Assembly (NCBI GenBank): GCA_022796015.1
Contig: JAAWHU010000037.1
Location: 1-34,301 of the forward strand
Length of the DNA stretch: 34,301 nt
From: Hungatella sp.
GTDB lineage: Bacteria > Bacillota > Clostridia > Lachnospirales > Lachnospiraceae
Reading direction: 5' to 3'
Shown here: in pieces, positions 204 to 24,042 of the stretch
How positions within the stretch are numbered: position 1 is the first letter of the stretch
Layout of the letters: each line of letters begins with the position of its first letter
Notes under the pieces: generated by a model
The model's database searches: none
What the model was told of the DNA's origin: nothing
What the model saw: only the letters and a program-made list of their open reading frames with translations
Program-made: the position numbers and the translations under genes

Positions 204-1040
204 ATGAGTTATAAGATAATCGGTGATAGCTGCCTGGATTTGACAGAGGCTATGAAAAAGGATTCCCATTTTCAGATGATACCTCTTACCCTCCAGGTCG
301 ATGATGTGCAGGTAATAGATGATGAGACATTTGACCAGAAAGAGTTTCTGAGATTAGTGAAAGCAAGCCCTAACTGTCCCAAGACAGCCTGTCCTTCTCC
401 AGAGACCTTTAAAAAGGCTTATGAGTGCGATGCAGACGATATCTATGTGATCACACTGTCCAGCCATTTAAGCGGTACCTATAACAGCGCTGTGGTGGGA
501 AAAAGCCTCTATGAGGAGGAGCACGGCCAAAAGAATATTAAGATTATGGATTCATGGTCTGCATCGGCAGGGGAATTGAATATTGCCTTGTATATTGCAA
601 AATTATGTGAATCAGGTATGGAGTATGAGGAAGTGTGCGCCAAGGCGGAGGCCTTCAAGAAAGAGATGAAGACTTATTTTGTTCTGGAATCTCTGGATGC
701 TCTGCGCAAGAACGGAAGGTTAACCGGGCTTCAGGCATTTTTTGCTACCACCCTTAATATTAAGCCGGTGATGGGGGCCGTAGAAGGCGTTATTATCAAA
801 GAAGATCAGGCAAGAGGAGTGAATAAGGCGCTTGCCAAGATGTGCGACTATGCGAAAAAGAATATTAAGAATCCGGAGGAGAAGATCGGAGTGGTGGCCC
901 ACTGTAATAATCGGGAGCGGGCGGAATTCGTGAAGGAGGAGCTGCTGAAAAGAGTGCCCTTTAAAGATGTGGTGATTACGGAGACTGCCGGAGTATCTAC
1001 GGTATATGCCAGTGACGGAGGAGTCATTCTGGCATGTTAA
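204..1040 (+). CDS. DegV family protein (fatty-acid binding)
   Basis: This 278-residue protein has the length and layout of the DegV family. These are cytoplasmic two-domain proteins that bind a fatty acid; in Firmicutes some act as FakB subunits that present the acid to the kinase FakA. Family motifs are visible: GDSCLDLT near residues 7-14, TACPSPETF near 61-69, and SSHLSGTY near 86-93, which contacts the carboxylate in known structures. The ATG at 204 follows an AGGAGG site (192-197). The gene stands alone with its own promoter and terminator. The family assignment is firm; the FakB role is inferred, and no FakA gene is in the window. Confidence 0.9.
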   Translation: MSYKIIGDSCLDLTEAMKKDSHFQMIPLTLQVDDVQVIDDETFDQKEFLRLVKASPNCPKTACPSPETFKKAYECDADDIYVITLSSHLSGTYNSAVVGKSLYEEEHGQKNIKIMDSWSASAGELNIALYIAKLCESGMEYEEVCAKAEAFKKEMKTYFVLESLDALRKNGRLTGLQAFFATTLNIKPVMGAVEGVIIKEDQARGVNKALAKMCDYAKKNIKNPEEKIGVVAHCNNRERAEFVKEELLKRVPFKDVVITETAGVSTVYASDGGVILAC

Positions 1041-14409: not shown

Positions 14410-15978
14410 ATGGAATTTCGTGTTATTTTTGTGTCGTCCAGAAGGTGTACCATCGAACTGCTGGATCAGGGAATCTATTTTACGGATCAGGAATATGAGA
14501 TCTGGCTGGACGGAAGGAAGGCTGTGACCTCCAGGAAGGTAATACAGACCGTAGGAGGGTTGAAGCCGGATACCGTCTATCACATGGAGATCCGCATGGG
14601 GGAAAAACGGGCGGCCCAGGATGTGAAAACCTGTTACGAATATGTGACTCTGAATGTGAAGGCGTTCGGTGCCAGAGGCGATGGAGTCCATGACGACACG
14701 GTGTGCATCCAGGCGGCCATTAACTGCTGCCCCAAGGACAGCAGGGTCTATCTGCCAAAGGGTACCTACAAGGTGTCCTCCCTGTTCCTAAAAAGTGATA
14801 TCACCATTGACCTTGGGGAGGGGGCTGTCCTTTCGGCCTACACTGACAGGGAAAGGTTCCCTATTCTTCCCGGGCTCATTGAGAGCTATGACGAGACGGA
14901 GGAGTACAATCTGGGCACATGGGAGGGCAATCCTCTTGATATGTTCGGAAGCATTATCACCGGCATTCATGTGTCCAATGTAGTCATTACCGGGGAAGGG
15001 ATTGTGGATGGCAACGCTGGCTTTGACAACTGGTGGAAGGACAACGGAAGGGAGAAGACAGGAGGAGCCTACCGGCCCCGTATGATCTTTTTAAACCACT
15101 GTGACCACATTACGGTTCAGGGCCTGACCATCCAGAACAGCCCGGCATGGAATCTCCATCCCTATTTTTCCAATGACACCAGATGGATTGACATGAAGGT
15201 GATCAATCCCAAGGTATCGCCTAACACGGATGGCATGGATCCGGAGTCCGTAGACGGGCTGGAGGTGGTGGGAGTGGAGTTCTCTTTAGGAGACGACTGC
15301 ATCGCCATGAAGTCAGGCAAATACTATATGGGCCACAAATACAAAAGGCCGTCTCAGAATATCGAGATCCGCCAGTGCTATATGCGCCACGGCCACGGTT
15401 CTGTCACACTGGGCAGCGAGATGGCGGCAGGCGTGAAGCATATGGTGGTGCGGGACTGTATCTTTGAGGATACGGACCGGGGCTTACGGGTGAAGACCAG
15501 GAGAGGACGAGGCAACGACGCAGTGATCGACGACATTCTCTTTGAGAACATCCGGATGGAAGGCGTGCTTACCCCCTTTGTGGTGAACTGCTATTACTGG
15601 TGCTGTGATCCTGATGGCCGCTCCGAGTATGTCAGGAGCAAGGAGGCCCTTCCTGTGGACGAGAGGACTCCCTTCATTAAGAAGCTGACCTTCCACAATA
15701 TTCAGGCTCACAACTGCCATGTGGCGGCCAGCTTTATCTACGGCCTTCCGGAGGCCAAGATCGAGGAGGTAACCTTTGACAATGTCCATGTGGACTTTGC
15801 CCCCGAGCCTACACCTGAGTATCCCGCTATGATGGCTGACGTGGAGCCCTGTACCAACAAGGGGATCTACATCAACAACGTGAAGCGCCTGACCATGAAG
15901 AATGTGACGGTAAAGGGAGCCATAGGGAAAGAGATGGAGATTCTGGGCGTGGACCGTGAGGAAGGAATCGAGGCCTAA
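14410..15978 (+). CDS. GH28 polygalacturonase-like glycosidase
   Basis: A 522-residue protein with an N-terminal fibronectin-III-like domain (about 1-75) and a right-handed beta-helix of family GH28 beginning at NVKAFGARGDG. The family's catalytic motifs are present: NTDGMDPES (from about 272), GDDCIAMKSG (from about 294, with the Asp pair), RHGHGSVTLGSE (from about 326) and RGLRVKTRRG. GH28 enzymes hydrolyse galacturonic acid links in pectin by inversion. No signal peptide is seen, so it likely acts inside the cell as an exo-enzyme on imported oligogalacturonides or rhamnogalacturonan pieces. The start at 14410 follows AAAAGGAG; an earlier in-frame ATG at 14392 overlaps the permease stop and has no ribosome site. 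Confidence 0.9.
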   Translation: MEFRVIFVSSRRCTIELLDQGIYFTDQEYEIWLDGRKAVTSRKVIQTVGGLKPDTVYHMEIRMGEKRAAQDVKTCYEYVTLNVKAFGARGDGVHDDTVCIQAAINCCPKDSRVYLPKGTYKVSSLFLKSDITIDLGEGAVLSAYTDRERFPILPGLIESYDETEEYNLGTWEGNPLDMFGSIITGIHVSNVVITGEGIVDGNAGFDNWWKDNGREKTGGAYRPRMIFLNHCDHITVQGLTIQNSPAWNLHPYFSNDTRWIDMKVINPKVSPNTDGMDPESVDGLEVVGVEFSLGDDCIAMKSGKYYMGHKYKRPSQNIEIRQCYMRHGHGSVTLGSEMAAGVKHMVVRDCIFEDTDRGLRVKTRRGRGNDAVIDDILFENIRMEGVLTPFVVNCYYWCCDPDGRSEYVRSKEALPVDERTPFIKKLTFHNIQAHNCHVAASFIYGLPEAKIEEVTFDNVHVDFAPEPTPEYPAMMADVEPCTNKGIYINNVKRLTMKNVTVKGAIGKEMEILGVDREEGIEA

Positions 15979-15994
15979 TCAAGGAGGGAATGAC

Positions 15995-16705
15995 TTGGAA
16001 ATAGAAAAGAAATCTCTGGTAGATGAGGCCTACGAAAAGATCAGACAGAAAATATGCGACTTTGAGCTGGTTCCGGGGCAGGCCATATCCGACTTTATAT
16101 TGAGCAAGGAGCTGGGAATGAGCCGAACCCCCATCCGCATGGCGCTTCAGAAGATTGAAAGCGACGGGTTGATCCGGGACGGCGGGGCAGGGCAGAGCTA
16201 TTTTGTGTGCGAGATCACGAAGGAGGATATAGAGGATCTGTTTGACGCCAGAAAAGGGATTGAACTCACTGCCCTGGAGCTTATGATGAAGAGAGGAGCA
16301 GGAGTGGAAGACCTGGAGTATCTGCGCAGAATCAATGAGCGGATGGAGGAGGTCAACAAACAGGGCCATGTGAAGCAGCAGTTTTACTATGACCAAAGGT
16401 TTCATGACAAGCTTGTACTGCTGTCTGCCAATTCCCGGATTATCCGGTTTCATGAAAGCCTTCTTCTCCAGTTTACCAGGATGCGGGTTCTCTCCTACCT
16501 GGACCGTTCCTATCAGGATAAGGCTTACAGAGACCATGATCTGGTTCTTGACATGATTGAAAAAGGGGACAAGGAAGGGGCGTCTGCCGCCTTGAGAGGT
16601 CATATAGAAACTGCCAAGCAGGACTATATCGGCCTTCTCACCAACAAGCTGAACTCAGAATCCTTCGGAGTCTTAAGCTATACCATGAAAAGCGACAGAG
16701 GATAA
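15995..16705 (+). CDS. GntR family transcriptional regulator, FCD type
   Basis: A 236-residue protein with an N-terminal winged helix (about 8-75, including the recognition part LSKELGMSRTPIRMALQKIE) and a C-terminal all-helical FCD effector domain, as in regulators of uronate metabolism such as UxuR and KdgR-like members. The start is probably TTG at 15995, 7 nt behind AAGGAGG (15981-15987); the only nearby ATG (15990) hits a stop after four codons, and an upstream GTG overlaps GH28 without a ribosome site. It probably senses a uronate intermediate and binds the TGTATACA palindromes before the module. Ligand and sites are inferred. Confidence 0.88.
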   Translation: MEIEKKSLVDEAYEKIRQKICDFELVPGQAISDFILSKELGMSRTPIRMALQKIESDGLIRDGGAGQSYFVCEITKEDIEDLFDARKGIELTALELMMKRGAGVEDLEYLRRINERMEEVNKQGHVKQQFYYDQRFHDKLVLLSANSRIIRFHESLLLQFTRMRVLSYLDRSYQDKAYRDHDLVLDMIEKGDKEGASAALRGHIETAKQDYIGLLTNKLNSESFGVLSYTMKSDRG

Positions 16706-16716
16706 GGAGGAATCTT

Positions 16717-18558
16717 ATGTTTAAAGAGATTGGAGAAACCGTGAAGCCCGGAGGGCTGTTTGACTTATATCCTCCCGCCTCCTGCAGGAAACCATGGGAG
16801 GAGATTCAGGAGGATTACAGGGAGATGCTGGTGAAGGAGGGGGAGAGGTGGATTTCCTATGGCTTTCCCCCCATCCATGCCACAGACTATATGGAGTTTT
16901 GCCGCACAGGCAACAGAAGCCATTATGAAGAGAAGCAGTTTGAGAGAAGAACCGTCCTCAATGCGCTGGTGCTGGCGGAATGTGTGGAGTATAAAGGGCG
17001 TTTTCTGGATCCCATCCTGAACGCCCTGTTTGTAATCTGCGGGGAGAGCGGCTGGCAGCTGCCGGCCCACAACAGCTATATCCGGGATACTCCCCAGTTT
17101 CCCCTTCCCGACGTGACAAGGCCGGTCATCGACCTGTTTGCGGCGGAGACAGGGGCGGTTCTGGCCGTGGCGGAGTATCTCTTAAGGGAGGAGCTGGCAG
17201 GAGTGAGCCCGGCAGTGTCTCTCATGGTGAACCATAATTTGGAGACCAGGATTTTTACGCCGTATTTGAAAGAACATTTCTGGTGGATGGGGGATGGAGA
17301 GTCCTCCATGAACAACTGGACCTCCTGGTGTACCCAGAATGTGCTTCTGGCGGCTTTTACAAGGCCTATGGACGGAGAGCGTCAGAAGGCCATGGTAAAG
17401 AAGGCCTGCGAAAGCCTTGACTACTTTCTGGACGAATACCAGGAGGATGGGTGCTGCGACGAGGGGGCACAGTATTACCGCCACGCAGGCCTTACTCTGT
17501 TTACCGCCATGGAGGTGTTAAACCATATAAGCGGCCAGGCGTTTTCCCCTCTCTACCGGGAAGTAAAAATCCGGAATATAGCGGACTATATCAGAAAGGC
17601 CCATGTGGCAGGTCCCTACTATGTGAATTTTGCGGACTGTTCCCCTGTGGCCGGAAGGTGTACGGCAAGAGAATACCTGTTTGGAAAGCGCACAGGCAAC
17701 ACAGGGCTTATGGCGTTTGCCGCCAAGGACTACAGAGAATCCCAGGATCCCTTATGCCGTGAGGAGCATAATCTGCTGTACCGGGTTATGGGAGCCTTTC
17801 TTCACAGGGAGATCATGGATTTTTCCGGAGAGGAGGAGGCTGGGCAGGACTGTTATTTTGCCAGCACAGGCCTTTTTATCGCCCGGGACCAGGTGTTTTG
17901 TCTGGCAGTGAAGGCCGGGGGCAATGGGGACAGCCACAACCACAATGATACAGGCAGCTTTACCATCTATAAGAACGGGCTTCCCATGTTTATTGACGTG
18001 GGGGTGGAAAGCTATACCAAGAAAACATTTTCTCCCCGGAGATATGAGATCTGGACCATGCAGTCAAGGTATCACAACCTAGCCGCCTTTGGGGATGTGA
18101 TGCAGAAGGATGGGAAGGAGTTTTGTGCTTCAGAGACAAAGTATGATCTGGGGGAGGATGAGTCCTGGATCCAGATGGAACTGGCAGGGGCATACGACCA
18201 TGAGGGCATCCTCTCCTATGTGAGGAAGGCCTGTCTGAAGAAAGGGAAGGAAATCTTCATCACGGACACCTATGAGGGAGAGCTGGGCCCGGCGGTGCTG
18301 TCCCTTATGACTTATGAAAGGCCGGCGCTTTTTTGGGAATCAGAGACAGACCATAAGGCTTCGGAGGAGAATGAGGCTAAGGGGCGGCTGAAAATCTTTG
18401 TAGGAGATCTGGGAGTCTGCCGTGTAGAGGGAGCCCTGGGTGTGGAGACGGAGGAGATTCCCATTACGGACCCAAGGCTTAAGATGGCCTGGAAGCACGA
18501 AATCTACCGTACCCTTGTAACCTTTGACCGGCAGATAGCCCTTCGGATTTTGCCTTAG
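16717..18558 (+). CDS. Heparinase II/III-like polysaccharide lyase family protein
   Basis: A 613-residue protein with an N-terminal (alpha/alpha) toroid and a C-terminal beta-sandwich of the heparinase II/III type (PF07940). Candidate active-site residues follow the lyase pattern: Asn199/Asn200 in MNNWTSW, Tyr253/Tyr254 in DEGAQYYRHAG, and His407/His409 in DSHNHNDTGSF, plus RYHN at 451-454. Lyases of this fold cleave uronic-acid links by beta-elimination and leave 4,5-unsaturated ends, exactly the substrate of GH105. There is no signal peptide, so the protein is probably an intracellular oligosaccharide lyase. The start at 16717 follows AAGGAGG, 11 nt after the regulator stop. The polysaccharide is unknown. 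The next gene converges 2 nt beyond its stop. Confidence 0.85.
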   Translation: MFKEIGETVKPGGLFDLYPPASCRKPWEEIQEDYREMLVKEGERWISYGFPPIHATDYMEFCRTGNRSHYEEKQFERRTVLNALVLAECVEYKGRFLDPILNALFVICGESGWQLPAHNSYIRDTPQFPLPDVTRPVIDLFAAETGAVLAVAEYLLREELAGVSPAVSLMVNHNLETRIFTPYLKEHFWWMGDGESSMNNWTSWCTQNVLLAAFTRPMDGERQKAMVKKACESLDYFLDEYQEDGCCDEGAQYYRHAGLTLFTAMEVLNHISGQAFSPLYREVKIRNIADYIRKAHVAGPYYVNFADCSPVAGRCTAREYLFGKRTGNTGLMAFAAKDYRESQDPLCREEHNLLYRVMGAFLHREIMDFSGEEEAGQDCYFASTGLFIARDQVFCLAVKAGGNGDSHNHNDTGSFTIYKNGLPMFIDVGVESYTKKTFSPRRYEIWTMQSRYHNLAAFGDVMQKDGKEFCASETKYDLGEDESWIQMELAGAYDHEGILSYVRKACLKKGKEIFITDTYEGELGPAVLSLMTYERPALFWESETDHKASEENEAKGRLKIFVGDLGVCRVEGALGVETEEIPITDPRLKMAWKHEIYRTLVTFDRQIALRILP

Positions 18559-18560
18559 GT

Positions 18561-20165
18561 TTATCCTTCCTCCGTCTTCTGCTGGATAAATTCCCTGGGA
18601 GCCACGCCGGCCACTTTTTTGAACACCTTGCTGAAATAAAAGGCGCTTTCAAATCCCAGGCGGTCCGCCACCTCGTATACCTTCATGTCCTGTTCCAAAA
18701 GCATGGATTTGGCGCGGCTTACCTTCATCTGAGCAATATACTCGGAAAAACCGACGCTGCATGTCTTTTTAAAGAGCACGCTGAGATAATTGGGGCTCAG
18801 CCCGAAGACGGCGGCCACCTCGTTGAGGGTCAGGCGTTCCTCAATATGGTTCTGAATGTATTTCTGGACATTGGCAATGACGTGTTCCTTGTAGGTGACC
18901 CGCTTGGATTTTAAGGTGTCGCAGAGGCCGTCCCGGAGGCGGGCCATCCATTCCACCACCTGCTCCACATTGCCCATACGGTAAATAGAGCGATAGCCAT
19001 CAGCATCTTCCGAGAAGATCCCGCTGATGGTTTCTTCGCCTCCGGGCAGCATGGACAGGGCCAGATAGAGGATGTTGCAGGCCCCATCGATGGCCTGGAG
19101 ATAGCGGAGAGGGCTTAAAAGGAACAAGTCCATAATCTGGCTTAAGGTATCATGGAGGACGGCAGAGTCGAACTCTTCAAAGGCCCGGGTCAGATCATTT
19201 TTAAACAGGGTAATATTAAAGGAATTTTTAATGGATTCCGGCTTTACCTGATCGTAGTCCTGATAGGGCTCCTCCACAGTCGCCGAGGAAAAGGCGATGC
19301 GGGCGTCCTGGTAGGAGTCGCTGATCTTTAGGGGGGCATCCACCATGGAGCCGATGCCTACGGTGAGATGGACGTTAAAGTAGTTATGCACCATGGTTCC
19401 TGCATTGTGAATGGCGTCCATCATGTTCCGGCGCTCCTCACTGCCTATGCTGGGAAAGTGGAAAATAACGGAAAAATGCTTCATGTCCAGAGAGATCACA
19501 TGGCAGGAAAGATAGCGGTTTAAAATATCCTTCACCATCTGGAGGGTGCTGGCGTACAGATTCATCAGCTGTTCATGGGTCATTTCCCGGGAGATGTATT
19601 CCACAATCTCACAGTGGGCGGCGGCGTAGTATTGGTCCGAGAAGTCTAACCCCAGATCCTTTACCTGAATCAGGAACTGTTCTTCATTGTCAAACAGATT
19701 GTGAAGGAGCCTTAAGAAGAATTTGTCCAGGAAGGTCTGGAGGAGAGGGCGCCCGCCTTCCCGGCTGGTTTCCGTGGCTTTCAGCTCTTCAAGGCGCTTT
19801 AGGGCATGGTGAACGGACTGGCTCAAGGAGGCGGCATCCAGCTCCAGCTTGATGAGATAATCCACCACTTCATAGGACAGGGCCTGCCTGGCCAGTTCAA
19901 ATTCCTCATAGCTGGTGAGGATGATAAACAGAGGGATGCGGCCATAGGTCTCGCGGCAGGTCTTTACCAGCTCCAGGCCGTTCATAATGGGCATACGGAT
20001 ATCGGTGATGACAATGTCGGGAGAGTATTCCTCGATCAGTTCCAGGGCCGCCGCTCCGTTCATGGCGGTTGCGCAGATCTCGATGCCGTAATCTGCCCAG
20101 TTTAACATGGATTTGATGCCGATCTGCACCAACGGTTCATCATCTGCAATCAGCAGTTTTATCAT
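18561..20165 (-). CDS. YesN-type response regulator (REC plus AraC DNA-binding)
   Basis: A 534-residue regulator. The N-terminal receiver domain has the acidic pair (Asp8/Asp9), the phosphoacceptor Asp55 in VITDIRMP, and Lys106. A long middle region of about 300 residues is unassigned. Residues about 430-534 form an AraC/XylS double helix-turn-helix (LTLNEVAAVFGLSPNYLS and LGFESAFYFSKVFKK). The start at 20165 follows AAAGGAG. It works with the kinase upstream on the same strand and probably activates the divergent sugar-transport operon. A small mobile element with its own hairpin now separates it from the kinase gene, which may reduce readthrough. Confidence 0.92.
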   Translation of the reverse strand: MIKLLIADDEPLVQIGIKSMLNWADYGIEICATAMNGAAALELIEEYSPDIVITDIRMPIMNGLELVKTCRETYGRIPLFIILTSYEEFELARQALSYEVVDYLIKLELDAASLSQSVHHALKRLEELKATETSREGGRPLLQTFLDKFFLRLLHNLFDNEEQFLIQVKDLGLDFSDQYYAAAHCEIVEYISREMTHEQLMNLYASTLQMVKDILNRYLSCHVISLDMKHFSVIFHFPSIGSEERRNMMDAIHNAGTMVHNYFNVHLTVGIGSMVDAPLKISDSYQDARIAFSSATVEEPYQDYDQVKPESIKNSFNITLFKNDLTRAFEEFDSAVLHDTLSQIMDLFLLSPLRYLQAIDGACNILYLALSMLPGGEETISGIFSEDADGYRSIYRMGNVEQVVEWMARLRDGLCDTLKSKRVTYKEHVIANVQKYIQNHIEERLTLNEVAAVFGLSPNYLSVLFKKTCSVGFSEYIAQMKVSRAKSMLLEQDMKVYEVADRLGFESAFYFSKVFKKVAGVAPREFIQQKTEEG

Positions 20166-20186
20166 AATGCTTTGCTCCTTTCCTGG

Positions 20187-20197
20187 GTAAGGTTCTA
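20187..20197 (+). repeat. Target-site duplication, left copy
   Basis: GTAAGGTTCTA is repeated exactly at 20415-20425 (12 nt if the next T is counted). The two copies flank the inverted-repeat element and fit the 10-12 bp duplications of the IS4/IS231 group. Confidence 0.7.
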
Positions 20198-20414
20198 TAG
20201 GCGTTTGCGAAACTCAAAACTTGGCTGAATATTCTGACCATATATTCCAGGAAAAGCCATTACACCATGGAGCTTAAGACCATAAAAAACAGGAGGGCCC
20301 TCTGCCCGAGTGTTTTTTGTCCTACTGGACTCAGTGGAATGCCCGGTGTACGAAGGCTTTGTATGGAATATATGGTCAGAATATTCTCATGGCTTTGACT
20401 TTCGCAATTACCTA
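20198..20414. mobile_element. MITE-like element inserted between kinase and regulator genes
   Basis: This 217-bp sequence has no coding capacity. Its ends match as inverted repeats, TAGG(CGT/TAA)TTGCGAAA(C/G)TCAAA, with 17 of 21 positions the same. Further in, a 23-bp stretch is perfectly inverted (20227-20249 against 20364-20386), then AAAGCC and ACACC are shared. At the centre AAAAAACA (20284-20291) pairs with TGTTTTTT (20311-20318) around a GGGC/GCCC stem, a terminator-like hairpin with T-runs on both strands. Removing the element and one duplication copy would leave the kinase stop about 33 nt from the regulator start. The class (IS4/IS231-related) is inferred from duplication length only. 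Confidence 0.75.
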
Positions 20415-20425
20415 GTAAGGTTCTA
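20415..20425 (+). repeat. Target-site duplication, right copy
   Basis: Second exact copy of GTAAGGTTCTA, ending next to the kinase stop codon (20427-20429, read on the minus strand). Confidence 0.7.
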
Positions 20426-20426
20426 T

Positions 20427-22277
20427 TTACCTGGCAACATAAGGAATTACCATAGTCATGGTAGTATAGACACCGGGTTCGCTGGTTATGGAGATGCCGT
20501 AATCAGGGCCGAATTCGTATTGAATCCTCTGATTTACATTGGCAATGCCTACCTGACGGAAGAAATCGGCGCTTTTCTTTTCTTCAGACTGCTTCAGGGC
20601 CCTTTCGATGGCCTCCTGTGTCATGCCTACTCCGTTGTCTGTAATGGAGATTTCCAGGCTTTTTCCCCTGTCGTCTGTCCGTGTGCGGACATCCACCTGG
20701 ATCCTGCCTGCAGAGCCTTTGGGCTCAATGCCGTGGAACAGGGCGTTTTCCACAATGGGCTGGAGGGAAAACCTGTGGATCATACATTGATACAGATCTT
20801 CGGATTCCATCTGGTACTCGATGGAGATACTCCCGCCGTAGCGGTACTGCTGAATAAGAAAATAATTTTTTACCAGATCCAGCTCCTCCTTTAAGGGAAT
20901 CAGGGCCGAGGAGCCTTTAGCCACCTGCTTTAAAAGCCGGGCCAGGGCGGTAGTCATCTCGGCAATCCCTGCAGCACCCTGGATGGTGGCCATCCATTTT
21001 ATGGAGTTTAAGGTATTGTAGAGAAAATGGGGATTGATCTGGCTTTGGAGGATTTGGTATTCCAAGTCTTTTTTCTGCTTTTCATCGTCAATACGCTTTT
21101 CCATAAGGCTCACCACATCCCGGGACAGGTTGTTGATGCCTCGGCCGATATCGCCCAGTTCGTGATCCCACTCGATGGAATCGTCTCTGGAGAAGTCGCC
21201 GTGGGCGATGCCGTTGATCTTTTTCTGGATTCTGGCCACAGGCTGGCTGATGGTGCGGTTTAGGGAATATACCATAAAAAACCCCAGAGACAAGATGATG
21301 GCACAGATGGCGGCAATGAGAAGAAGATAGACCTGTCTCTGCTGCTCCAGCTGCTGCCAGGATAATGTCTGATGGAGATACCAGCCTGTCTGACCAAGAG
21401 AGCGGGTAATGAGGGTTTTGGTGCTGCCATCTGCCATGCGGACCTTCTGGACAACGGTTTTGCTGTCCACATCTTTCACCTGTTCTTCAGACAGCACCGT
21501 AAAGTCGGGCTCCATCTCCTGACAGACGGACCCTTCTATGAGATAAAGCTTGTCGCCTATGGTAAGGTATAGACGGCTGTCCTGGGGGAAGGGGAAGGAC
21601 TTTAAGTAGTCCATAATCACATTGGAGGAGACGGATACATAGACCCAGCCGATGATATCCGTACCAAAGGTATTGTAAATAGGCCGGGCTATGGGGATTA
21701 TGGGCACGGAGGGACTGTTTTTCTGATAAAAGGGGTCGTCAATAATGCCGATCCAGTGAAAATCCGGGCTGGCAAAGAGAGACTGAAAGACCTGGGATTT
21801 AGCAAGGGAATCCACTTTGTAGGAGGAGGTGTCTCCTGAGGTAGGCAGTACCTGGAGAAAATTGGAGGAGGTATTGTTGGAGACAATGATCCTTGTAATA
21901 TAGCGGGAAGACCTGGTGTTGTGGTATTCCTCCTTGAGCCGGTCAAAGGAGCTTATGGCAACGGACCGGAGGCCCTTGTCGTCTTTGGATACGATAGCTA
22001 GCGGGTCCTTGTCAAGAAATGTCTCCAGATATCCGGCGATATCCGTGCTCTGGCGGCACCAGTTCGTGAAATATACCAGATCCTTCATGTCGGAGGAAAT
22101 GCTGTTGGCGGCAATCTGTAAATTAAATTCCACAGACTGGATCTGGTTTCTTCTCAGAAGGGACTGGAATACACAAAAGCAGACACTTACCGTAACCAGG
22201 GTGATTAAAAGGGTAGTACCTATGGTGATGGAGATGATCTTTCCTTTGATGGTTTTAAAAAAAGTATGTAGATTCAT
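20427..22277 (-). CDS. YesM-type sensor histidine kinase
   Basis: A 616-residue membrane kinase. Segment 1 lies at about 12-36, an extracellular sensor of about 275 residues (dCache-like) follows, segment 2 is at about 317-339, then HAMP (340-395). The His_kinase domain has the phosphoacceptor His417 in QINPHFLYNTL, and the ATPase domain has PIVENALFHGIEPK (507-520) and DNGVGM (547-552). It should sense an extracellular sugar, or the loaded binding protein, and phosphorylate the YesN regulator. The ribosome site before the ATG at 22277 is weak. The gene is transcribed divergently from the module B binding protein. Confidence 0.92.
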   Translation of the reverse strand: MNLHTFFKTIKGKIISITIGTTLLITLVTVSVCFCVFQSLLRRNQIQSVEFNLQIAANSISSDMKDLVYFTNWCRQSTDIAGYLETFLDKDPLAIVSKDDKGLRSVAISSFDRLKEEYHNTRSSRYITRIIVSNNTSSNFLQVLPTSGDTSSYKVDSLAKSQVFQSLFASPDFHWIGIIDDPFYQKNSPSVPIIPIARPIYNTFGTDIIGWVYVSVSSNVIMDYLKSFPFPQDSRLYLTIGDKLYLIEGSVCQEMEPDFTVLSEEQVKDVDSKTVVQKVRMADGSTKTLITRSLGQTGWYLHQTLSWQQLEQQRQVYLLLIAAICAIILSLGFFMVYSLNRTISQPVARIQKKINGIAHGDFSRDDSIEWDHELGDIGRGINNLSRDVVSLMEKRIDDEKQKKDLEYQILQSQINPHFLYNTLNSIKWMATIQGAAGIAEMTTALARLLKQVAKGSSALIPLKEELDLVKNYFLIQQYRYGGSISIEYQMESEDLYQCMIHRFSLQPIVENALFHGIEPKGSAGRIQVDVRTRTDDRGKSLEISITDNGVGMTQEAIERALKQSEEKKSADFFRQVGIANVNQRIQYEFGPDYGISITSEPGVYTTMTMVIPYVAR

Positions 22278-22322
22278 GAAATGCCCCGCTTTTTATGTTG
22301 TGTGAGGACTGCCTGAGGCCAT

Positions 22323-22339
22323 CCCGGCAAAAGGCCGGG
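22323..22339 (-). promoter_or_regulatory. Hairpin in the kinase leader
   Basis: CCCGGC (22323-22328) and GCCGGG (22334-22339) form a 6-bp GC-only stem in the roughly 100-nt leader of the kinase mRNA. There is no T-run, so it is not an intrinsic terminator. Role unknown. Confidence 0.35.
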
Positions 22340-22361
22340 TCCGGCGGGGGCAGAAAAATGG

Positions 22362-22501
22362 TTTCCATGTAGTTTGTATGATAAAGTATGATATATTTTC
22401 CTGTAAAAGTCAACAAAAAGCAAAAAAATACAGGCAGATCCCAGGGTATCATGTATGCAAAGTTAAAAATTTACAGGAAGTTCATAAAAAATTACATGGA
22501 A
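22362..22501. promoter_or_regulatory. Four-box operator array between divergent promoters
   Basis: Two motif types appear in mirror order: TTTCCATGTA (22362-22371), TTCCTGTAA (22398-22406), TTACAGGAA (22471-22479) and TTACATGGAA (22492-22501). The right-hand pair is spaced 21 bp, two helical turns, as AraC-type regulators prefer. One left box lies within the kinase promoter spacer. The remainder of the 22278-22662 gap holds the two promoters and one leader hairpin. Confidence 0.5.
22385..22413 (-). promoter_or_regulatory. Promoter of the kinase gene
   Basis: On the minus strand, TTGACT (22413-22408), a 17-nt spacer and CATACT (22390-22385). TATGATA is directly repeated 10 bp apart over the -10 (22377-22383 and 22387-22393). 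Confidence 0.6.
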
Positions 22502-22581
22502 ATAAAAATAGACGGATTTAGAAAAAGAAATATTGAATCTTTTGTGCAATTTTTTCCATTCTAGGAAAGGGCCATCTCCGG

Positions 22582-22587
22582 TATACT
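22582..22587 (+). promoter_or_regulatory. -10 of the module B operon promoter
   Basis: TATACT at 22582-22587 is well placed, but the -35 position reads TTCTAG, a poor match. A weak -35 fits a promoter that needs an activator, here probably the YesN regulator bound upstream. Confidence 0.45.
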
Positions 22588-22662
22588 GAATTTACAACAG
22601 GATGACGGCCAAAACCATGGATTTTGACAGCGGTCCTGGCAATAAAAGAGGAGGAAACAAAC

Positions 22663-24042
22663 ATGAAAAAAAGATTACTTGGTTTAACTCTGGCATGCAG
22701 TATGGTGGTCATGAGCCTGGCAGGATGTTCAGGAGGTTCGGGAACCGAGACTACGGCGGCTTCCGCGGCAGAGACTACAAAGGCAGCAGAGACTACTTCG
22801 GCTGCAGGGGGAACAGCAGAGACCACGGCAGCTCCGGCAGCAGAGGGGGACACCGTATTAAAGTGGGCAGTCTGGGATATTGCGGCGACCGTATATTATC
22901 AGCCCTTAATTGATGCCTTTGAGGCAGCTAATCCCGGAGTGAAGATCGAGATGGTAGACCTGGGCTCCACGGATTATCAGACAGTACTTGCCACAGAGCT
23001 TACAGGAAGCGGTTCTGATTTTGATATTGTGGCAGTAAAGGATGTACCGGGATATATGACCCTGGTAAATAAGGGAGTTTTAGAGCCTTTGGATGATTAT
23101 ATTGCAAAAGACAGCGTAGATCTGGCTCAGTACGGCGGAATCGCTGATCAGCTCAATATTAACGGCAATATTTTTGAGCTGCCCTTTATCCGCTCCTTCT
23201 GGGTATTGTTTTACAACAAAGATGTATTTGACAACGCAGGTGTGGAGTACCCCACCAATGATATGACTTTTGAGCAGTATGACGCTCTGGCAAGGTCTGT
23301 CACCAACACCACTCCGGGAGAGGAAGTATATGGTACCCACTATCATACCTGGAGATCCACGGTTCAGCTGTTCGGTATCCTGGATGGCAAGAACACTATC
23401 GTGGACGGAACCTATGATTTCTTAAAGCCATACTATGAGATGATTCTGGCACAGCAGGAGGACGGCGTATGTCAGGACTATGCTACATTAAAGACCTCCA
23501 GCCTTCATTATTCAGGCGCATTTGCCCAGGGTAATGTGGCTATGCTGAATATGGGTTCCTGGTTTATCCCGACTCTGATCGAGAAGATCAAGACAGGAGA
23601 GTACGGTCCGGAAGTAGCCAACTGGGGCCTTGTAAAATATCCTCATGCAGAGGGTGTTGAGCCTGGAACCACTCTGGCGCAGATCACCTCCGTAGCCATT
23701 CCGACTTCTGCTCCCCATAAGGATCAGGCATGGGAATTCGTGAAGTTTGTGACAGGAGCCGAGGGCGCAGAGATCGTTGCCAACACAGGTAACTTCCCGG
23801 CTGTAACTACAGATGCAGTAATCGAGGCAATCTCCTCCATCGAGGGCTTCCCTCAGGATGAGGCAAGTGCAGAGGCATTGAACACCGTGCAGACCTATCT
23901 GGAGATGCCGGTTCACGAGAAGAGCTCCGAGATCGAGACCGTGCTGAATGAGGCTCATGACAATATTATGACCGAGGGCAGCAGCATTGACGAGGGTATT
24001 GAGGAGATGAACGCAGGCGTTCAGGCTATTCTGGGCCAGTAA
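22663..24042 (+). CDS. Sugar ABC transporter solute-binding lipoprotein (module B)
   Basis: A 459-residue family 1 solute-binding protein. The signal peptide ends in the lipobox LAGC, followed by a repetitive Thr/Ala/Glu linker of about 45 residues. The binding domain starts near LKWAVWDIAATVYYQPL and contains the family-like LPFIRSFWVLFYNKDVFDNAG. The start at 22663 has an AGAGGAGG site; an upstream in-frame TTG at 22624 would spoil the signal peptide. It is divergent from the YesM kinase and followed by two permease genes. The ligand is probably an oligosaccharide cut by GH88, DUF2264 and GH2 enzymes downstream; this is inference. Confidence 0.92.
   Translation: MKKRLLGLTLACSMVVMSLAGCSGGSGTETTAASAAETTKAAETTSAAGGTAETTAAPAAEGDTVLKWAVWDIAATVYYQPLIDAFEAANPGVKIEMVDLGSTDYQTVLATELTGSGSDFDIVAVKDVPGYMTLVNKGVLEPLDDYIAKDSVDLAQYGGIADQLNINGNIFELPFIRSFWVLFYNKDVFDNAGVEYPTNDMTFEQYDALARSVTNTTPGEEVYGTHYHTWRSTVQLFGILDGKNTIVDGTYDFLKPYYEMILAQQEDGVCQDYATLKTSSLHYSGAFAQGNVAMLNMGSWFIPTLIEKIKTGEYGPEVANWGLVKYPHAEGVEPGTTLAQITSVAIPTSAPHKDQAWEFVKFVTGAEGAEIVANTGNFPAVTTDAVIEAISSIEGFPQDEASAEALNTVQTYLEMPVHEKSSEIETVLNEAHDNIMTEGSSIDEGIEEMNAGVQAILGQ

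Follow-up and report, generated by a model that had tools for sequence, protein, structure and literature searches.

A 217-bp MITE with a conserved hairpin core, very probably mobilized in trans by an IS1182-like transposase with a DUF772 domain, in a two-component operon of Hungatella sp.

Among the closest described systems is the Chunjie MITE of Geobacter uraniireducens, a 235-bp element whose copies vary in size and keep conserved ends and direct repeats, one of them lying inside a phosphate uptake operon (passages of PMC10969869). The same passages describe the Correia/NEMIS elements of Neisseria, short palindromic mobile elements found in transcripts, which are cut by RNase III (PMC10969869). 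In REP/RAYT systems, palindromes (REPs, 20-40 bp) occur as inverted pairs on either side of a Y1 transposase gene (PMC3733652, PMC2817692), and for the IS1182 family an excerpt on the Paracoccus member ISPse1 gives a duplication of 4 bp (PMC3281130). The 217-bp MITE described here lies within a two-component operon in a 34,301-nt stretch of Hungatella sp. DNA, called the window throughout; Chunjie, with its conserved ends, direct repeats and operon copy, is a precedent for it, in another organism and likened by description rather than by ends, and the passages cited for Chunjie mention no conserved core of the kind present in the window MITE (PMC10969869). The Correia/NEMIS elements are likewise comparable by description and not by sequence; processing has been demonstrated for them, whereas for the window MITE it is a guess.

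The element occupies positions 20198-20414, with ends TAGG...CCTA, and is flanked on the plus strand by two copies of GTAAGGTTCTA (20187-20197 and 20415-20425), an exact target duplication of 11 bp; a twelfth matching base arises because the element itself begins with T. The exact duplication of 11-12 bp that the first-pass annotation had placed outside the element is therefore present on both sides. Upstream lies the gene of a histidine kinase (His_kinase and HATPase_c domains; 20427-22277, minus strand) and downstream that of a response regulator with an AraC-type DNA-binding domain (18561-20165, minus strand); both genes are intact, and the element follows the stop codon of the kinase gene and precedes the regulator's likely ribosome-binding site, AGGAAAGGAG (20175-20184, minus strand), which was read from the sequence and is outside the element. 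The kinase-regulator gap measures 261 nt and falls to 33 nt once 217+11 are subtracted, as the same annotation had calculated. The surroundings of the pair (window 15956-24042) are a sugar-uptake setting; nearby are a GntR-type regulator, a heparinase II/III-like gene (16717-18558) convergent with the regulator gene and 2 nt from it, and a solute-binding protein gene (22624-24042).

None of nine orthologous gaps in other species has a TAGG end (L numbers denote fetched loci and G numbers genomes; at L115 and L116 the upstream ORF was taken as the kinase without a check). Kinase and regulator genes overlap by 4 nt at six of the nine loci, and gaps of 49, 67 and 176 nt separate them at the remaining three. 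In records L056-L059, of which three are Hungatella MAGs, the junctions are identical to those in G004, G025, G007 and G001, which suggests a position of the window close to Hungatella.

The terminal inverted repeats (20198-20218, plus strand; 20394-20414, minus strand) match at 17 of 21 positions as read from the sequence, and further in lies a perfect inverted repeat of 23 bp (left arm 20227-20249, plus strand; right arm 20364-20386, minus strand); both features had been claimed beforehand for the 217-bp sequence and were recovered here. Between the arms stands a conserved structured core (20260-20351, plus strand), the sole match in the window to our core model R1 (86.9 bits). Folded as RNA the element reaches -98.6 kcal/mol (z -10.0; none of 200 shuffles as stable), and folded as DNA it has a z of -9.2. 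No ORF of at least 80 aa is contained in the 217 bp; one mechanical ORF (20310-20894) merely passes through. The element is short and lacks a transposase gene, and it has inverted ends, a target duplication, many copies and an autonomous element with the same ends, the properties by which a MITE is recognized.

An A-run and a T-run flank the G+C-rich centre on both strands, and on this ground the central hairpin might act as an intrinsic terminator, uncoupling regulator from kinase, with the insertion having been kept for that effect. The T-runs exist on both strands as first noted, but they lie within the predicted helix AAAAAACA/TGTTTTTT and would be paired; other lineages have non-T sequence at this place with pairing kept, the T-run being missing from the core-alignment rows of several of them. 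Moreover, a terminator scan of 20100-20500 found no site, an absence that is weak when taken alone, since shuffles average 0.5. Termination, one of the two functions that the first-pass annotation had proposed, thus appears improbable.

The genome that holds the window (G000; 3.71 Mb in 163 contigs, 88.55% complete) has at least 41 separate places matching the element, with 40 of 141 first-look candidates scored. Nineteen of the 41 are at contig ends, and contigs often start or end inside the element, as would happen where an assembly is broken by copies that are nearly identical. Allowing up to two mismatches, the terminal pattern gave 78+91 (169) matches against 4+6 (10) for a reversed control pattern. 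Within the genus, a 240-bp query was matched by 8 of 26 genomes including G000, two of them with a single weak match each. The sequence is thus not one kept at this locus in all relatives with no copies elsewhere, since its own genome matches it at 41 or more places and nine orthologous gaps lack it, and the insertion is an event of an ordinary kind, one short element among dozens landing between two genes. A search of relatives for other copies and empty sites had been suggested beforehand; it yielded other copies, and element-free gaps in other species only.

In loci fetched from the own and related genomes, which hold part of all copies, 94 pairs of inverted ends lie 40-330 bp apart; in two cases the paired ends belong to neighbouring elements (L212, 291 bp; L236, 95 bp). 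Two length classes stand out, 65 bp (27 pairs) and 214-217 bp (47 pairs), besides four pairs of 273-274 bp in G001. Of the 94 pairs, 28 are flanked by exact direct repeats of 10-12 bp and 53 by such repeats with up to one mismatch, against means of 0.3 and 0.6, respectively, and a maximum of 3, when flanks were re-paired as a control; the 28 exact repeats are 68% A+T. At 37 of the 94 pairs no duplication within two mismatches was found, as is expected, and not proven, of old copies.

In the 27 mini-elements of 65 bp (e.g. L044, L046, L153, L226) the TAGG ends meet at a GAATATTC centre and there is no core; several have 9-11-bp duplications, and they could be deletion products of the full element or its ancestor. 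In the elements of 273-274 bp (L154, L156, L211, L213) the core contains an additional hairpin domain, and a similar domain was seen at the same place in another species (L073, ~1375-1500; G003). Gene context was assigned for 91 elements from crudely called ORFs (38 tandem, 34 overlapping an ORF, 12 divergent and 7 convergent), figures too rough to be given weight. A plasmid search with a core-bearing stretch of L253 and a phage search with the window element returned no match; a literature search by words in titles and abstract starts found no description of the element, which, being a search of words and not of sequence, is no proof that it is unpublished.

Insertion sequences with the same asymmetric pair of ends as the MITE are present in sister species, with lengths of 1.73-1.76 kb. 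One of them (L160, positions 565-2306) was found through an end-pattern search of three related genomes as inverted ends 1742 bp apart in G004; it carries a transposase gene of 485 aa, is flanked by the duplication TGGAAATATAA and shares the 15 bases of its right end with the window MITE. Another (L164) has 16 bases of the left end and 15 of the right end identical to those of the window MITE and a 9-bp duplication; L165 has the same two ends and no duplication, and a relative of 51% identity (L173) has ends with TTGTTAAA and is flanked by the duplication TCTTATTCTGT. Duplications of 9 or 11 bp were found in three of the four testable copies, while L167 runs to the contig edge.

The partner transposase matches Pfam DUF772 (PF05598) with 49.3 bits against a cut-off of 23.1, a domain that we take to be a mark of the IS1182 family. 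The NCBIfam model IS1182 (NF033551) gives 62.7 bits over the C-terminal half; this likeness, together with DUF772, points to the IS1182 family, whereas a score far below the cut-off of 270 and duplications of 9-11 bp set the partner apart. Target duplications of 10-12 bp are made by the IS231 group of the IS4 family, which is similar in this respect; it differs in that the partner matches DUF772 and the IS1182 model, whereas PF01609 gives 14.8 bits and so misses its cut-off of 23. Transposases with PF01609 were tried as partners and rejected: 45 places were listed in six genomes and 30 were fetched, and at none of the 30 did TAGG ends lie at IS distance on both sides (L104 has a 65-bp element nearby).

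Relatives of the partner transposase, of any strength, were detected in 9 of 26 genus genomes. No gene for it was found in the 88.55% complete G000, nor in G001 or G025, which among the other genomes have the most copies; the enzyme responsible for moving the window copy would therefore have been lost, be unassembled or reside elsewhere. Judged from sequence, the DUF772, IS1182-like insertion sequences are the likely autonomous partners of the MITE.

Taken as a whole, we consider it highly probable that the MITE is a non-autonomous transposon mobilized in trans by a DUF772-domain, IS1182-like transposase. Such an enzyme would recognize the TAGGYRWTTGCGAAA ends and duplicate about 11 bp (10-12) of target, and it would have placed the element after the kinase stop codon and ahead of the regulator's ribosome-binding site, sparing both genes; inside the element there would be an older, conserved hairpin module of ~90 nt. 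The identity of the enzyme that moved the window copy we infer, as we do the effect of the insertion. The first-pass description of a MITE-like element inside an operon agrees with the copy number, the duplications at other copies, the autonomous relatives with the same ends and the nine of nine gaps without the element.

The 217-bp unit might instead be a palindromic element of the IS200/IS605 type (Y1) or a REP/RAYT-like repeat, a reading suggested by the arrangement of cores at certain Y1 loci. An intact IS200-type gene of 146 aa is bracketed by inverted core copies in L271/L280; in L271 (142-1041; G003:C92) this tnpA gene (357-797, minus strand) lies between two inverted cores and scores 138 bits with the IS200 model (cut-off 55), but just 26.3 bits with the RAYT model, whose cut-off of 80 is not reached. 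Y1 remnants in L292 and L298 are bracketed by inverted cores as well, and in L296 a core adjoins Y1, so that bracketing is seen in three loci and adjacency in a fourth. Inverted cores were present at 4 of 28 Y1 loci, which belong to G003 and G005, against 2 of 37 loci of other transposases, both in G005; with so small a contrast nearness alone is weak, and it is the bracketing that counts as evidence.

Y1 elements are not known to duplicate their target, whereas the window copy and 53 of the 94 pairs have one; in addition, the ends match those of the DUF772 insertion sequences and no Y1 match was found in the own genome. The inverted core pair around the Y1 gene of L271 does resemble the REP/RAYT arrangement outlined above, but the gene is of the IS200 type and falls below the RAYT cut-off, the core is ~90 nt long and the window element has target duplications. 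A Y1 origin is contradicted for the 217-bp unit, for which we judge it very improbable; for the origin of the core it may still hold.

Core model R1 matches at least 7 of 150 family genomes, the own one and six of other genera, in a search that scored up to 28 candidates per genome and whose filters lose weak matches. The cores of other genera mostly have no recognizable TAGG ends and lie within palindromes with diverged arms. In seven copies fetched from G132 (L301, L308, L312, L316, L320, L324, L328) the core (1501-1586) lies midway in a near-perfect palindrome whose arms, 84-127 bp long, vary in sequence between copies; short stretches in common can be seen by eye, which softens the view that these arms are wholly unrelated. 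Of seven G121 copies, six show arms of 49-66 bp, while L317 has no arms to speak of.

A search for hidden duplications at core copies without clear TAGG ends found none in 38 of 40 elements. The duplication at L324, located inside its own palindrome, and the two at L073, which are repeats inside or between tandemly duplicated cores, were not counted as target duplications. In G025, good TAGG ends persist at the expected distance in L064 and L071, and weak ones in other copies; in G121, L309 and L321 have TAGG-like ends at 58-60 nt; otherwise the mean end score is near background over G121, G107, G004, G132 and the G003/G005/G002 set. These retained ends weaken the notion of a separate class of core copies, and the traces at the expected distance indicate that some such copies are old MITEs. 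Diverged cores were also observed beside GGCAAAT...ACAAAAGAA, a further kind of flank (L209, 239-328; L027, 1327-1417).

In an alignment of 39 core copies from seven genomes there are 27 pairs, of which 18 have changed on both sides without loss of pairing; the share of paired cells is 96.6%, compared with 32-41% in slid structures. The covariation score is 0.335 versus 0.158 in shuffles, a value that none of 500 shuffles reached; on a measure of further pair types the core was not above shuffles (399/500). Over 108 distinct rows (2897 cells), 2810 cells are Watson-Crick, 33 G-U and 20 A-C, and the 23 rows of other genera, which were aligned to the model and not used in building it, have 612 Watson-Crick cells out of 619. 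If the core worked as an RNA of a single strand, G-U would be expected to be much better tolerated than A-C; the difference is small, and the pairing pattern thus fits a constraint on DNA, or correction from arm to arm, better than an RNA of one strand.

A very stable structure with covariation could also be expected of a resident regulatory RNA of the operon, attenuator- or leader-like, that is no transposon at all. We give this practically no credence: G-U barely exceeds A-C in the counts above, dozens of copies lie elsewhere in the own genome, and Rfam models run against window 20100-20500 and six loci gave nothing near a gathering score. The absence of the element from the nine orthologous gaps led us to reject a resident element of the operon.

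Palindromes may stay symmetrical through arm-to-arm correction, and both genes and the ribosome-binding site are spared; an ordinary MITE with no effect at all on the operon, its conserved core a mere by-product of such correction, is therefore possible, if somewhat doubtful. Correction between arms does not explain why unpaired bases of the core are conserved too, with 12 unpaired columns reaching at least 93% across the 108 rows, mostly G and A opposite each other. Loops with facing G and A form sheared G-A pairs, which are also possible in RNA. The core, of ~90 nt, is unusually well conserved in its own right, and core and partner IS group are the new parts of this system. It might be an ancient DNA hairpin module with near-invariant unpaired facing G/A, adopted or carried separately by unrelated transposases (IS200-type Y1 in some genomes, DUF772 here) and keeping near-perfect pairing while the palindromic arms diverge, a speculative idea that we think rather unlikely.

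With regard to the operon into which the MITE was inserted, kinase and regulator may still be co-transcribed, separated by a very stable predicted hairpin, the regulator relying on its own ribosome-binding site and the mRNA perhaps being cut or stabilized there; we take this outcome seriously, short of calling it probable. Its long double-stranded stem would make the hairpin a possible site of mRNA processing. That the insertion is without measurable effect on the operon is likewise plausible, and we hold it with the same reserve.

The locus documents a MITE burst that widened the space between the two genes of a sensor-regulator pair, genes which in most relatives examined overlap, and the enzyme group that likely mobilizes the element can be named, together with its unusual duplication length. 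The conserved hairpin is spread over several genera and could be a recognition module common to two transposase classes, an idea that the covariance model makes testable in other genomes.
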